Assembly (NCBI GenBank): GCA_025054935.1 | Contig: JANWZD010000001.1 | Span: 62,001-126,000 of the forward strand | Reading direction: 5' to 3' | Source of the DNA: Dehalococcoidia bacterium | GTDB lineage: Bacteria; Chloroflexota; Dehalococcoidia; SpSt-223 | Length of the DNA: 64,000 nucleotides | Part shown: positions 1,916 through 26,256 of the stretch, one piece after another | How the letters are laid out: each line of letters begins with the position of its first letter | Numbering within the stretch: position 1 is the stretch's first letter | Made by a program: the position numbers and the translations under genes | The notes under the pieces: generated by a model | What the model saw: the letters and a program-made list of their open reading frames with translations, nothing else | Databases searched by the model: none | Told to the model about the DNA's origin: nothing

Positions 1916-3070
1916 TCAGCGCGCAACCTCGATCCGCCCCGCTTTGACGCGGAGGATTGTCGAGCGGCTGAGAAAGTCGGGGCTAAAGTCCTCGAGGTCG
2001 GTGGCGGTAATAATCACTTGCTGGGCCGGCTGGATCGACCGAAGCAGGTGGTGCCGACGGCGCGCGTCGAGTTCTGACATGACGTCATCGAGCAGAAGAA
2101 GGGGCAGCTCGCCGGTGCGCTCGCGAATGTATTCCGACTCGGCGAGCTTGAGGGCGAGCGCGGCCGTTCGCTGCTGGCCGCGCGAGCCGTAGGCTGCCGT
2201 GTCGGCACCATTAGTCGTGAACTGGAGGTCGTCGCGATGGGGGCCGACGAGCGAGACGCCCCGGGCGATCTCGCTGGCACGGGCAGCGTGGATCGCTTTG
2301 AGCAGGCAGTGCGGCAGGTCGGCGAGCGGCGGCAGCGGTTCGGACGGTTTGCCGCCGAAATTCGGCCGATAGCTAATGTGCAGCACCTCGTGCTGGTTCG
2401 TGAGAGCGGGGTGGATCTCCCCGGCGAGAACGTTCAGCGCTTCCACAGATTCCCGCCGGCGGTCGACGACATAGGCGCCAAGCTCGGCGAGCCGCTGATC
2501 CCAGTAGGGGAGTTGGTCCGGTTTGGCCTGACGGTCGCGGATAAGGCGAAGCAACGAATTTCGCTGGAGGAGCACCCGGTTGTACAGCTGGAGCGATCGC
2601 AGATAGGCAGCGTCGACTTGGGAGTTCATGATATCGAGGTAGCGCCGGCGCTGGGCGGGAGACCCCGCAACCAGTTCGATATCGCCCGGGCTGAAGAAGA
2701 CGACCGTCATCTGGCCGATCATGTCCACTGCGCGTCGGGGCGCGCCGTTGATCTTCATGCGCTTGGTGATGCCGTTCCCGTTCTCGTCAAGGGCAGCAGT
2801 CATCTCCAGCTGAACGGTCGACGCTGCGCGCCGCACTTTGGCAACGATCCGCAGGAAGGGGAGGGGGCTTTCGAGGGCGAGCCAGTTGATCCATTCGCGC
2901 TCTGGCGCTCTGCGCGCGGAGCGAGTGGTCGCAATGATGTGAAGCGCGTCGAGAAAGTTGGTTTTCCCTTGGGCGTTGTCGCCTTGCAGGATCGTGGCGC
3001 CCGGTTGCAGGTCGAGCTCGAGCCGGGCATAGTTGCGGAAGTTCGTCAGACTGAGATGTTCGCAGCGCAC
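1916..3070 (-). CDS. recF: DNA replication and repair protein RecF
   Basis: A 384-residue SMC-like ATPase that helps load RecA on gapped DNA. The Walker A motif GDNAQGKT is at residues 30-37, preceded by the typical LSLTNFRNY start. The ABC signature region is in the SRGQQRTAAL segment, and Walker B is LPLLLLDDVMSELD near residue 325. The length is normal for RecF. It starts with GTG at 3070. It is not next to dnaA, dnaN or gyrB here, so the classic origin-region gene order is not preserved at this locus. The gene is on the opposite strand to the cupredoxin and convergent with it, with a 45-nt gap. Confidence 0.95.
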   Translation of the reverse strand: MRCEHLSLTNFRNYARLELDLQPGATILQGDNAQGKTNFLDALHIIATTRSARRAPEREWINWLALESPLPFLRIVAKVRRAASTVQLEMTAALDENGNGITKRMKINGAPRRAVDMIGQMTVVFFSPGDIELVAGSPAQRRRYLDIMNSQVDAAYLRSLQLYNRVLLQRNSLLRLIRDRQAKPDQLPYWDQRLAELGAYVVDRRRESVEALNVLAGEIHPALTNQHEVLHISYRPNFGGKPSEPLPPLADLPHCLLKAIHAARASEIARGVSLVGPHRDDLQFTTNGADTAAYGSRGQQRTAALALKLAESEYIRERTGELPLLLLDDVMSELDARRRHHLLRSIQPAQQVIITATDLEDFSPDFLSRSTILRVKAGRIEVAR

Positions 3071-12128: not shown

Positions 12129-14156
12129 TCACGCAGGGGGGGCGGCGTCGTTCTGCAGCGCGTTGCCGACCGCCTCCGGCGCGAAGCCGACGAGAATGTC
12201 ACCGACGCGGAGCAGACTGTCGCCGCGCACGGGAAGCCGGGCGGCGCCTCGCTGCAGGAAGGCGAGGTAGGCATCGCGCGGGAGGCGGAGTTCGCGCACG
12301 CGCTTCCCCGCCCAGGGGGAGCCGTCGCGGATAGCAATGGTCAGCACGGGCAGGTGAGCGGATGCAGGCGCAGGCGAGACGTCGCGCTCGCTCTTCTCGC
12401 CTGGCAATCCAAGTCGCGCTAAGATCGCCGCCCGCCGCAGCACGCCGACCAACCGCATCGGGGCGCGCGGGTCGACAACCGGAACCGCTGCCACGCTTTC
12501 GACCCCGGGCTCTTCGAGCGCCTGGGCGATCGTCTGATACGGCGTCACCGTCGGGAATTCGTGGCGCGCCCAAGGGAGGATGCTTGCTTCTCCCCGCGCC
12601 GTGAGCAAGGCAACTTCGATCTCGTGGGGACCGCTCAGGCCGACCAGTCTGCCCTGCGCATCGACGATGGGGATCTCCTCGTTGCCGATACGACGAGCGG
12701 CGTCGGCGACTGTCGTCGTCGGGGCGAGGGTGGGGTAGGTCGTCTCCATCAAGTCGCGCACGAGGGTGGTGCTCAGCACGGGGGAGAGGGAGGAGGAAGA
12801 AGCGCTTTCGCGCTCTGGATCGAAGAGGCGGTAGATCGACCACGGCTCGGCATGGCGGGCGATCTCCGCCGCACCCCAGGCGACGGCGGCGAGGAAGACG
12901 ACGAGGCCGGGGTCAGCGCCGAATTCGAGGCTGAGCATCGCGCAGGCAAACGGCGCCCGCACCACGGTGGCTAAGAGCACCATCCCGCCGACGAGCGCCA
13001 AAGTAGCGGCATCGCTGCCCGGCAGGAAAGGAAGAAGAAGCCCGGCCAGCCCGGCGCCGAGCGCTTCGCCGATCCCGACAATCGGACCGATAACCCCGCC
13101 GACGCCGCCGAGCCCGAGAGTCGCTGCCAGCGCGGCGGCTCGGCCAGCCGCCGTGAGAAGCCAGAGCGGCTCTGCCCCCGCCGCGAGCAGCGCCGGAGCG
13201 ATCGGGGCGTTCCCCGCAAAAGCGGGGCTGAGAACGCTCAGCAGGCCAACAATCCCTCCGCCGATCATCGGCGTGATCGGCAGCAGTCCGCCGATGCGAC
13301 GGTGCGCGGTGAGCAGCAGCCCGAGCAGGGAGGAGAGTGCAAGCCCGACGATGAGCGCCGCGACCGAAACAGCCGCAACGACAATCCAGCCCCCTGGCTC
13401 GGCGGGGCTTGCGCCGGCCGGCAGCGGCACCGCCACCCCGAGCAGCCGACCGAGTACGGCGCCGAGCCCGGCGGCAACGAGGAGGGCGACGAGGTCGCCG
13501 GCGGCAGGGCGTCCGGCGACGGTCTCGAGGGCGAACAGCAGCCCGGCAAAAGGGACCCCGAAGGCCGTGGAGATCCCGCCCGCCACCGCCGCTGCCGCCA
13601 TCCCCCGCAGCGAGACCGTCCGCTGCCGGGCGAGCAGCCCGAGACGGCGGCCGAGGGCGGCGGCCAGCGCGATCACCGGCTCTTCGCGCCCCGCAACTCC
13701 GCCGAAGAGCACGGTCACTGCGGCGAGCCCAAACTGCCCCGCGGCGCGCGGAAGCTCGGCCGGGTGGCCGCTCAGCAGCTGGTGATAGCCGTTGCCCCAC
13801 CAGCGGCGGCCGATCCCGACAAGCGCGCCGCCCACAATCGGGGGGAGCACAATCAGCAGCAGCACTCCGCTCTCAAAGCGCGCTGTCGCGACAAGACCCG
13901 CGAACCCGTTGAACGCTCCTAGGAGGAGGGCGGCGGCGACTGCAACGATTGCTCCGACGGCGAACCCGGAGACGACCGGGTGCATTGCGCCGAGCAGGGA
14001 GCTCGAGACGGCGGGGGGCGGGGTCTCGATCGCCTTCGTAGCAAGTGGTGGGGCAAGTTCAGCCGGCTCGACCGTCACGGGCCCCCTCTCGATCCACTCC
14101 TTGACCTGCAGCCTAGCGGACGGCCGCATTCTATCGGCGGGGTCGGAGAGCGTCAA
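12129..14156 (-). CDS. ClC-type chloride channel/antiporter with CBS pair and RCK-C (TrkA-C) domain
   Basis: A 675-residue membrane protein. After a soluble N-terminus of about 55 residues there are about ten hydrophobic helices of the ClC fold (to roughly residue 430). A CBS pair follows (LVRDLMETTYPTLAP; SILPWARHEFPTVTPYQTI), then a C-terminal RCK-C/TrkA-C domain ending near VGDILVGFAPEAVG. The ion-path motifs are divergent: the GxEGP loop reads GREEP, keeping the gating Glu but replacing the next Gly, and the first selectivity motif looks like GNGYH rather than GSGIP. Ion choice is therefore uncertain. The frame opens with TTG at 14156; ATG 14129 is an alternative. Confidence 0.85.
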   Translation of the reverse strand: MTLSDPADRMRPSARLQVKEWIERGPVTVEPAELAPPLATKAIETPPPAVSSSLLGAMHPVVSGFAVGAIVAVAAALLLGAFNGFAGLVATARFESGVLLLIVLPPIVGGALVGIGRRWWGNGYHQLLSGHPAELPRAAGQFGLAAVTVLFGGVAGREEPVIALAAALGRRLGLLARQRTVSLRGMAAAAVAGGISTAFGVPFAGLLFALETVAGRPAAGDLVALLVAAGLGAVLGRLLGVAVPLPAGASPAEPGGWIVVAAVSVAALIVGLALSSLLGLLLTAHRRIGGLLPITPMIGGGIVGLLSVLSPAFAGNAPIAPALLAAGAEPLWLLTAAGRAAALAATLGLGGVGGVIGPIVGIGEALGAGLAGLLLPFLPGSDAATLALVGGMVLLATVVRAPFACAMLSLEFGADPGLVVFLAAVAWGAAEIARHAEPWSIYRLFDPERESASSSSLSPVLSTTLVRDLMETTYPTLAPTTTVADAARRIGNEEIPIVDAQGRLVGLSGPHEIEVALLTARGEASILPWARHEFPTVTPYQTIAQALEEPGVESVAAVPVVDPRAPMRLVGVLRRAAILARLGLPGEKSERDVSPAPASAHLPVLTIAIRDGSPWAGKRVRELRLPRDAYLAFLQRGAARLPVRGDSLLRVGDILVGFAPEAVGNALQNDAAPPA

Positions 14157-23901: not shown

Positions 23902-25020
23902 GTGACGTTCTCGTTTACCGTCCTTGCGACTGACGGCGCTGCCCGGCGGGGGCGGCTGGTCACGGCTCGGGCGACGGTAGAGACGCCGGCGTTCATGCCG
24001 GTGGGCACGCTCGCAACGGTGAAAACCCTCCGTCCCGAGCAGGTAGCTGCACTTGGCTACCGCCTCATCTTGGCGAACACCTATCACCTCCATCTGCAGC
24101 CGGGAGAAGCGATCGTGGCGCGGCTCGGGGGAGTGCAGCAGATGATGGGGTGGCCCGGGGCGATCCTCACGGATTCCGGCGGCTATCAGGTGTTCAGCCT
24201 CTCCGCCCTGCGGGAGGTTGATGATGACGGCGTCACGTTCAGCACCCCCCGTGGTCCGCGCCGCCTGACGCCCGAACTGGCAATGGCGATCCAGCAGACG
24301 CTCGGCTCCGACATCGCGATGGTGCTCGATGACGTGCCGCCGATGGACGCGTCGCCTGAGGCGCAGCGCAGCGCCATGGAGCGCACCCACCGCTGGGCGC
24401 TGCGCTCGCTGGCGATCCCGCAACGGCCCGATCAGGCGCGGTTCGCGATCGTGCAAGGCGGCGCAAACCCGGAGTGGCGGCGCGAATCGGCGGCATTCTT
24501 GGCGGCCTATCCCTTCGACGGCTTCGGCATCGGCGGGCTCTCGCTCGGAGAAGCCAAGCCGCTCACCTGGACCCTGACTGCAGCTGCCTGCTCGGCGCTG
24601 CCGCCGGACCGTCCGCGCTACCTGATGGGCGTCGGCGCGCCGGACGATCTGATCCGCGGGGTCGCGCTTGGGGTCGACCTCTTCGACAGTGTCCTGCCGA
24701 CGCGGCTCGCGCGTCACGGCGCCGTCTTTACCCGCTTCGGTCAGCTGTCGCTCAAAGGAAGCCGGCTCGCTGCCGACCCGCGGCCGATCGACGAAGGATG
24801 CGATTGTCTCGCCTGCCAACGCTATTCGCGAGGCTGGCTGCGGCATCTGCTCATGATCGGGGAGCCGCTCGGGATGCGGTTGGCGACTGTGCATAATCTG
24901 CGGTTTCTCTCGACCCTCATGCATGACCTGCGCCGCGCGATTGAGGAAGGACGTCTCGCGGCGTTCGCCGCCAGCTATCCCTATGGATCGGTTCGAAGAG
25001 GCGATCTTCCCGCGGCGTGA
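23902..25020 (+). CDS. tgt: queuine/preQ1 tRNA-guanine transglycosylase
   Basis: Replaces G34 of GUN-anticodon tRNAs by preQ1 in queuosine synthesis. The 372-residue protein has all family marks: general acid/base Asp91 in TDSGGYQVFSL, Asp143/Asp144 in VLDDVPP, GFGIGGLSLGE, the nucleophile Asp262 in LFDSVLPTR, and the zinc site Cys300, Cys302, Cys305 and His331. The start is GTG 23902, six nt after a -10 box. Its end overlaps the 94-residue gene, which in turn overlaps a second TGT-fold gene. No queC/D/E/F or queA is in the window. Confidence 0.97.
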   Translation: MTFSFTVLATDGAARRGRLVTARATVETPAFMPVGTLATVKTLRPEQVAALGYRLILANTYHLHLQPGEAIVARLGGVQQMMGWPGAILTDSGGYQVFSLSALREVDDDGVTFSTPRGPRRLTPELAMAIQQTLGSDIAMVLDDVPPMDASPEAQRSAMERTHRWALRSLAIPQRPDQARFAIVQGGANPEWRRESAAFLAAYPFDGFGIGGLSLGEAKPLTWTLTAAACSALPPDRPRYLMGVGAPDDLIRGVALGVDLFDSVLPTRLARHGAVFTRFGQLSLKGSRLAADPRPIDEGCDCLACQRYSRGWLRHLLMIGEPLGMRLATVHNLRFLSTLMHDLRRAIEEGRLAAFAASYPYGSVRRGDLPAA

Positions 25021-25267
25021 ACTGTTTGGCCGAGCGCTGCTCCGGCTGGTCAACTTGGCTGACCAACGGGGAGTGTCGCTTCGGGTGGATGAATTCCGCG
25101 CGGTGTTGCCTCTTGGCGAGAGCGAACTCTCCTATGAGCTCCAGCTGTTTGGCCGGACGGTCGTGCGGCGCATTGAGCGGGGCCGCGTCGTTGCGCGGTT
25201 CGAAACCTACGACTTCGAGCAGGGGCTCGATCTGTTCGAGCGCGCCGTCGAGGAGGCAGAGGGGTGA
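24983..25267 (+). CDS. unknown 94-residue protein between tgt and its paralogue
   Basis: An unrecognised small, soluble, strongly charged protein without cysteine pairs or signal peptide. It looks like a compact alpha/beta domain: a helix (FGRALLRLVNLADQRG), then strands (VSLRVDEFRAVLP; ELSYELQLFGRTVVRRIE; RVVARFETYDF) and a final acidic helix. ATG 24983 lies 38 nt inside the end of tgt, and its stop overlaps the next start as GTGA. This placement suggests it is made together with the two TGT proteins and may bind or regulate them. Confidence 0.7.
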   Translation: MDRFEEAIFPRRELFGRALLRLVNLADQRGVSLRVDEFRAVLPLGESELSYELQLFGRTVVRRIERGRVVARFETYDFEQGLDLFERAVEEAEG

Positions 25268-26256
25268 GCGCGTCAGAGCGGCCGACGAACTCGGCAGGCG
25301 ATCCTCATCTGCTGGGGCGGGGGAGCGTGAAGCCGAGAACGCCGGCGCTTCTCCTGCCTGCCCCTTGGGGGGCTGCGCGGGGACTGCTGCCCTCGGAGCT
25401 GGAGAGGGCCGGCGTCGCCGGGCTAGTGGTCGGCGCGGTCGAATTGGCGCTCCGTCCTGGGCTCGACACAATAGCAGCGCTCGGCGGTCTCTCTCGCCTC
25501 GTGGGGGGGCTCCCGACTGTCGGCGAGCCGGGCGTCGGCGCGGTGCTGGGGGAGGGCGGACTGCCGCCGGCGCGGATTGTCGGCGTCGGTGATGCGCTGC
25601 GCTACCGCAATGGGCTCGACGGCGCGACCGGAGAGCTGACCCCGGAGTGGTCGGTCGCGACGCAGCAGCAGCTTGGCGTCACCGTTGTTGTTGCGCCTGC
25701 TCTGCCGGAGCGGCTGGTGGTGAACGGACGAGAACAGCGTCTTCCCAGCGCGCTCGCCGAGCAGTGGCTGCGTCGCGGGGCCGCGGCGGGCGCCCGCGCA
25801 GCACTTGCCCTCATTCCTCCCGGCTCGCCGGCGTTTCAGCGGCGCTTGCTCGAAACAGCAGTTCGCGAGCAATTTAGCGGCGTCGCCGTCATCGGGGCGA
25901 TCGATCGAACCGGGTGGCCGCGCGAGTGGAGTTGGCTGGCCGTCGGCCTGCAGACCGTGCGCGATCTCGATGCTGCGGCTGCTCTCGGCTACGACGCGGT
26001 CGTTCCGCTCTTCCCGACGGCGTTGGCGCGCGCGGGGAAGGCGATAGTGGCGGATGAGGTCGTGTCCGTGGCGGACTTCCCAGAGGCGGCCGCGCCGCTC
26101 GATCCGGTCTGCGATTGCCCGGCTTGCCGCTTTGCGCTCGGCTACCTCGCTCATCTCGTCAGCGCGAAAGAGCTTCTCGGAGAGACCCTGCTTCTGCTGC
26201 ACAACGTTCGCGCTGTCGCCCGGCGTCTTGGCTGTCTTGATCCAGGCGGCGAGTGA
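25264..26256 (+). CDS. catalytically dead TGT-fold paralogue retaining the zinc site
   Basis: A 330-residue protein that lines up with tgt next door: RTPALLLPAPWG with ETPAFMPVGTLA, ALGGLSRLVGG with RLGGVQQMMGW, LTPEWSVATQQQLG with LTPELAMAIQQTLG, and LGYDAVVPLFPTALARAG with LGVDLFDSVLPTRLARHG. The zinc site is kept (Cys283, Cys285, Cys288, His313). The catalytic residues are not: the DSGGYQ segment is replaced around residues 87-92, the DD pair is gone, and the nucleophile Asp262 corresponds to Val247. This is the same pattern as eukaryotic QTRT2, the non-catalytic partner of QTRT1. GTG 25264 overlaps the preceding stop. A role as tRNA-binding or regulatory partner of Tgt is inferred. Confidence 0.85.
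   Translation: MSASERPTNSAGDPHLLGRGSVKPRTPALLLPAPWGAARGLLPSELERAGVAGLVVGAVELALRPGLDTIAALGGLSRLVGGLPTVGEPGVGAVLGEGGLPPARIVGVGDALRYRNGLDGATGELTPEWSVATQQQLGVTVVVAPALPERLVVNGREQRLPSALAEQWLRRGAAAGARAALALIPPGSPAFQRRLLETAVREQFSGVAVIGAIDRTGWPREWSWLAVGLQTVRDLDAAAALGYDAVVPLFPTALARAGKAIVADEVVSVADFPEAAAPLDPVCDCPACRFALGYLAHLVSAKELLGETLLLLHNVRAVARRLGCLDPGGE

Follow-up and report, generated by a model that had tools for sequence, protein, structure and literature searches.

Why does a bacterium carry, in one operon with an intact tgt gene, a second TGT gene whose active site is lost? In the bacterial Tgt enzymes known so far, two identical subunits pair up, and in eukaryotes the dead subunit QTRT2 is thought to provide QTRT1 with the other half of its tRNA-binding platform. 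The two genes considered here lie in a window of 64,000 nucleotides (the whole stretch of DNA that was analyzed) from a hot-spring Dehalococcoidia bacterium, and they are the only PF01702 matches in its genome (G000; 3.57 Mb, 97% complete). The initial annotation read them as a possible heterodimeric, QTRT1/QTRT2-like TGT and knew of no described bacterial case; our search of the open-licence PMC literature likewise found neither a bacterial heterodimeric TGT nor a dead bacterial TGT paralogue. Judging from the sequences, we consider it probable that the trio of genes at this locus encodes a heteromeric bacterial TGT, and its likeness to QTRT1/QTRT2 most likely reflects convergence, not QTRT2 orthology.

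Table 1. Features of the tgt operon, in window coordinates
Feature	Position	Strand	Description
tgt, catalytic subunit	23902..25020	+	GTG start, 372 aa; PF01702 E 4.6e-133; TIGR00430 above cut-off
94-aa ORF between tgt and paralogue	24983..25267	+	Overlaps tgt by 38 nt and paralogue by 4 nt
Catalytically dead TGT paralogue, proposed non-catalytic subunit	25264..26256	+	GTG start, 330 aa; PF01702 E 3.4e-25
Zinc and dimer-helix stretch of paralogue, residues 283-316	26110..26211	+	Most conserved part of the paralogue

Overlapping stops and starts run through all three genes, as had been described, but tgt and the paralogue do not themselves abut, because the 94-aa ORF lies between them (Table 1). 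A scan for promoters and terminators found nothing. Conservation of the gene pair in relatives had been proposed as a check, and the order tgt, 94-aa ORF, paralogue, followed by glnA and hslU, proved to be common to three congeneric species (MAGs), namely that of the window and two others; the gene upstream of the trio differs between the window and KatS3mg060. Identity to the window proteins in the two congeners is 83 and 71% for Tgt, 59 and 51% for the paralogue, and 84 and 62% for the 94-aa protein, whose gene was also located at L033:3437-3721 and L034:1508-1789. This small gene has a dN of ~0.12-0.34 and a dS of ~1.2-1.4, giving a dN/dS of 0.1-0.24 by a simple count with dS near saturation. 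AlphaFold2 predicts its product as a helix, five strands and a helix (pLDDT 88). The protein has no significant match in Pfam, NCBIfam or the PDB, a fold search with the model likewise returned none, and the ORF was not found beyond its own genus in 400 Chloroflexota genomes. On the basis of gene order, the 94-aa protein may be a third component or subunit of a Tgt-paralogue complex.

The first gene of the trio is an ordinary bacterial tgt by profile and by motif. Its product scores 444 bits against PF01702 and 416 bits against TIGR00430 (equivalog cut-off 306.75), and it contains DSGGYQ (D91), DD143-144, the nucleophile D262, LPTR, and a CxCxxC and His zinc site (C300/C302/C305/H331). It thus has every catalytic motif of the homodimeric enzymes of Z. 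mobilis and E. coli (TIGR00430), from which this locus differs by the addition of a second, dead TGT and by a changed aromatic hot spot in Tgt. The dN/dS of Tgt across the three species is ~0.1-0.2 (simple count; dS near saturation).

The second product belongs to the TGT superfamily without being a bacterial Tgt equivalog. A profile search against TGT families, which the initial annotation had proposed, identifies it as a PF01702 protein (89.3 bits; gathering cut-off 26.3), and its scores against TIGR00430 are 63-70 bits (70.2 for the window gene; cut-off 306.75). BLASTP aligns it with the neighboring Tgt at 27% identity over 322 columns (E 1e-11), in agreement with the alignment along most of its length reported from the sequence alone. 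The earlier residue assignments also held: C283, C285, C288 and H313 line up with the Tgt zinc ligands, D262 corresponds to V247 and R268 to A253, DSGGYQ is replaced by GEPGVG, and D143 is replaced as well. At the positions of Asp102, Asp156 and Asp280 of the Z. mobilis enzyme, the paralogues of the three species carry E, A/T and V/V/E, respectively; the catalytic residues are missing in all three. All three species therefore show the QTRT2-like trait of a dead active site with a retained zinc site. QTRT2 itself has its nucleophile Asp changed to Glu and Asp105 changed to Cys (PMC6165067).

An AlphaFold2 model of the paralogue (pLDDT 91, pTM 0.89) was built on a 75-sequence alignment that includes ordinary TGTs, so the known family fold has partly shaped the prediction. 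Had the protein lacked a structural match to the TGT barrel, the initial reading would have been in difficulty; the model is a predicted TGT barrel, and all of the top PDB matches listed by Foldseek are TGTs, with a TM-score of ~0.77. In profile comparisons the paralogue matches bacterial TGTs over its full length (E ~1e-24), QTRT1 at 1e-18, and QTRT2 in the zinc stretch only (6e-4). Because the bacterial enzymes match throughout and QTRT2 does not, the paralogue resembles a bacterial TGT whose catalytic function was lost in an event separate from that in QTRT2, and orthology to QTRT2 was rejected. Like QTRT1/QTRT2, the window pair combines an intact subunit with a zinc-retaining dead paralogue of the same fold; unlike that pair, its members are not orthologous to the eukaryotic arrangement on the QTRT2 side, they share their operon with one further gene, and their host keeps QueA and QueG. 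Orthology to DpdA or to archaeal TGTs found no support either. Although DpdA, archaeal TgtA and ArcS share the PF01702 superfamily with the paralogue, their NCBIfam models do not match it, and the DpdA model NF041059 gives no match up to E 1.

The distribution of conserved residues within the paralogue points to the dimer region. Between residues 278 and 316, which comprise the zinc site and the next helix, 31 of 39 positions (79%) are invariant among the three species, compared with 95 of 252 (38%) between residues 26 and 277. Tgt shows no such contrast, with 25 of 40 (62%) in the matching stretch and 189 of 269 (70%) elsewhere. In Z. mobilis TGT, the aromatic hot spot that holds the homodimer brings Phe92 from one subunit together with Trp326, Tyr330 and His333 from its mate (PMC5395182). 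At positions 326, 330, 333 and 339 in that numbering, the paralogue has Phe, Tyr, His and Glu in all three species (F290, Y294, H297 and E303 in its own numbering); retention of this hot spot, with W326F and with Leu in place of Phe92, is another QTRT2-like trait. The Tgt proteins of the genus have Tyr, Trp and His at 326, 330 and 333 and Met at 92, such that Z. mobilis F92 and Y330 correspond to M81 and W312 of the window protein. Trp at 330 is present in all three of these Tgts and in none of 104 ordinary TGTs, while His333 and Glu339 are kept in all 103 ordinary TGTs without a gap. Since ordinary TGTs lack Trp330, its occurrence together with Met92 indicates an altered Tgt interface. Tgt homodimers could still form, given that His333 and a bulky aromatic residue at 330 are retained.

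These patterns also bear on the possibility that the paralogue pairs with itself and has taken on a new, non-transglycosylase job (e.g. binding of RNA or a ligand, or control over Q insertion), sharing no more than the operon with tgt. Motifs outside the zinc stretch, namely EPG, GEGxGLPP and YRNGLDGA, are invariant in the three species, the stem branch of the paralogue is very long (~3.6 changes per site), the operon holds a third gene, and mouse QTRT2 likewise homodimerizes by itself (PMC6165067), all of which would suit such a protein. We nevertheless regard it as unlikely, because it is the zinc and dimer stretch, rather than the remaining barrel, that is most constrained, and because the dimer hot spot of the partner Tgt has changed.

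Still less probable is an ordinary Tgt homodimer beside a relaxed, unneeded duplicate that is in the process of being lost. In favor of this view, tree lengths put the rate of evolution of the paralogue at ~4 times that of Tgt, and its dN is 0.38-0.48 as against 0.12-0.22. This explanation is nonetheless very unlikely, since the gene is present in all three genomes of the genus that were examined, its ORF, zinc ligands and dimer residues are intact in species whose proteins are only 51-59% identical, and its dN/dS is ~0.3 (simple count; dS near saturation). The same ratio, together with the intact ORFs, led us to reject a decaying pseudogene.

The genome encodes QueA (443 bits) and QueG (371 bits), enzymes of the steps that follow preQ1 insertion, so there is a pathway for Tgt to feed; their presence fits ordinary preQ1-to-Q use. 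For QueC there was only a partial match of 26 bits, and for QueF no match, in this 97% complete assembly, for which reason the base is probably salvaged: the organism would take up preQ1 or a similar base and make Q on tRNA. Altered tRNA or base choice, which the initial annotation had raised, found no support, as QueA and QueG are present, the catalytic residues of Tgt are intact, and V233G, the change of queuine-binding TGT mutants according to PDB titles, is absent from Tgt. That the pair recognizes another tRNA set or another base than ordinary bacterial TGT is hardly to be expected: a dead subunit could steer the enzyme towards other tRNAs, salvage is the probable source of the base, and the preQ1 pocket is slightly altered (C158V and V233L, Z. 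mobilis numbering), but Leu at 233 and Val at 158 also occur in 20/47 and 3/47 ordinary Chloroflexota Tgts.

Where the paralogue came from is less clear than what it has lost. No copy was found in other genera among 400 further Chloroflexota genomes and the GTDB contig collection; contig-search matches outside the genus all carry DSGG, most of them fit a strict nucleophile pattern as well, and those that miss this pattern, where re-read, keep the FDC nucleophile. Other Chloroflexota do have second TGTs in which an insert follows DSGGFQVFSL, and we refer to them as Tgt-b; most are intact and several are degenerate. The full tree groups the paralogue with Tgt-b and the degenerate TGTs with a support of 100/99, a grouping that rests on long branches and is lost once the other degenerate TGTs are removed. 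Without these, AU tests reject neither a sister relationship to the tgt of its own genus (p 0.38) nor a position with the second TGTs (Tgt-b; p 0.47); with them included, and long branches in play, the p value of an own-tgt origin is 0.08. In profile comparisons the window paralogue scores best with degenerate Tgt-b (121-132 bits), with 37-105 bits for other Chloroflexota groups and 96-112 for other phyla.

Parallel cases were found by following up Chloroflexota genomes with two PF01702 matches. Degenerate, zinc-retaining second TGTs are present in four other families (f66, f85, f114 and f107). Three from f66 (L127, L128 and L129) are dead for want of the nucleophile, which L138 of f114 also lacks; in L139 of f85 the nucleophile Asp is changed to Glu, the same change as that reported for QTRT2; L142 of f66 and L161 of f107 are altered in part, the changes in L161 being milder. 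All seven keep the zinc ligands and Y330/H333/E339, and each of their genomes has another TGT gene on a different contig. These three dimer residues are in fact kept in 21 of 21 second TGTs sampled. Where Tgt-b is the sole such TGT found (G005, G143, G152 and G219, and G264 apart from its TGT2, a type of second TGT described below), it is intact. Tgt-b thus resembles the window paralogue in being a second TGT alongside an intact one, with the zinc site and Y330/H333/E339 kept and catalytic residues lost in some members; it differs in that it is not adjacent to its partner tgt, the 94-aa gene was not found there, and it is less degenerate.

The partner enzymes in these genomes vary at the hot spot. 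At positions 326-330-333-339 they read W-V-A-E and W-A-A-D in f107, Y-T-W-H in f87, H-Y-S-E in f114, and F-F-Y-D and F-Y-Y-A in f66, and the Y330/H333/E339 triad is intact in 7 of 19 genomes with two TGTs. His333 or Glu339 is missing from the partner in 9/19 such genomes as compared with 0/47 Chloroflexota genomes without a second TGT of this type, a count weakened by the fact that partners were grouped after looking at the genomes. By parsimony the losses amount to ~4 changes on the tree, and a test with independent pairs has only 2-4 pairs and cannot reach significance, so it is suggestive, not proof, that hot-spot erosion in the partner tracks the presence of a second TGT.

Among the second TGTs of Chloroflexota there is also a widespread type with intact catalytic motifs, here termed TGT2 (L118-L126, L134, L077 and L088). 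It has Asp at 339 and Met or Leu at 92 in most copies, and the one tested scored ~300 bits, just below the TIGR00430 cut-off. One otherwise ordinary tgt (L141, G235:C137) is without the stretch around DSGGFQ, owing to a deletion or an assembly error; the second TGT of the same genome, L142, keeps the nucleophile Asp and not PTR.

Catalytic loss, constraint on the zinc and dimer region, linkage in three species, the changed hot spot of Tgt and the parallels in other Chloroflexota together favor a heteromeric enzyme with divided labor. This part of the initial QTRT1/QTRT2-like proposal is the best-supported reading; orthology to QTRT2 and an altered choice of tRNA or base are not supported. Tgt would carry the active site and exchange G34 for preQ1 in GUN tRNAs. 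The paralogue, with its active site lost and its TIM barrel, zinc site and dimer helix kept, would take the other place in a standard TGT dimer, meeting Tgt at the usual interface and completing the platform to which the tRNA binds; Tgt alone would be weak or inactive, and the 94-aa protein would be held in the same complex. In most TGT dimers one subunit acts while the other orients the tRNA, the E. coli dimer binding two (PMC13416341). A dead subunit fits the one-tRNA mode, which favors the paralogue as the orienting subunit.

We propose more tentatively, as a possibility that we would not yet put at even chances, that obligate heteromeric TGTs evolved more than once in Chloroflexota, the second TGT becoming a non-catalytic subunit and the catalytic subunit losing its homodimer hot spot, and that the third protein of the trio in this genus is part of the enzyme. 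If true, bacteria would have repeated the QTRT1/QTRT2 split, in this genus fixed as an operon of three genes. It is a standing question what eukaryotes need a dead QTRT2 for, and a bacterial case would bear on it. Two intact TGTs, a half-degenerate second TGT and a fully dead, operon-bound TGT would represent stages at which the role of a non-catalytic subunit, and the path from homodimer to heterodimer, could be tested with small, possibly thermostable proteins. The findings also caution that a Chloroflexota gene annotated as a second Tgt need not encode an enzyme.

Further TGT-like genes occur elsewhere in Chloroflexota. In L150 (G364) two divergent examples adjoin on opposite strands, with ORFs near 3017 on + and on -. 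Large Chloroflexota genomes contain frames of ~650-690 aa (L130, L131 and L132) that are very divergent from Tgt and are perhaps DpdA relatives. A Dehalococcoidia cluster (L035:9265-16942) has a TGT-like gene at 12641-13699 beside genes for a HerA-like ATPase, a NurA-like-looking product and a large SMC/Rad50-like protein; from a reading of its ORFs, it resembles a DpdA-type DNA-modification or defence cluster.
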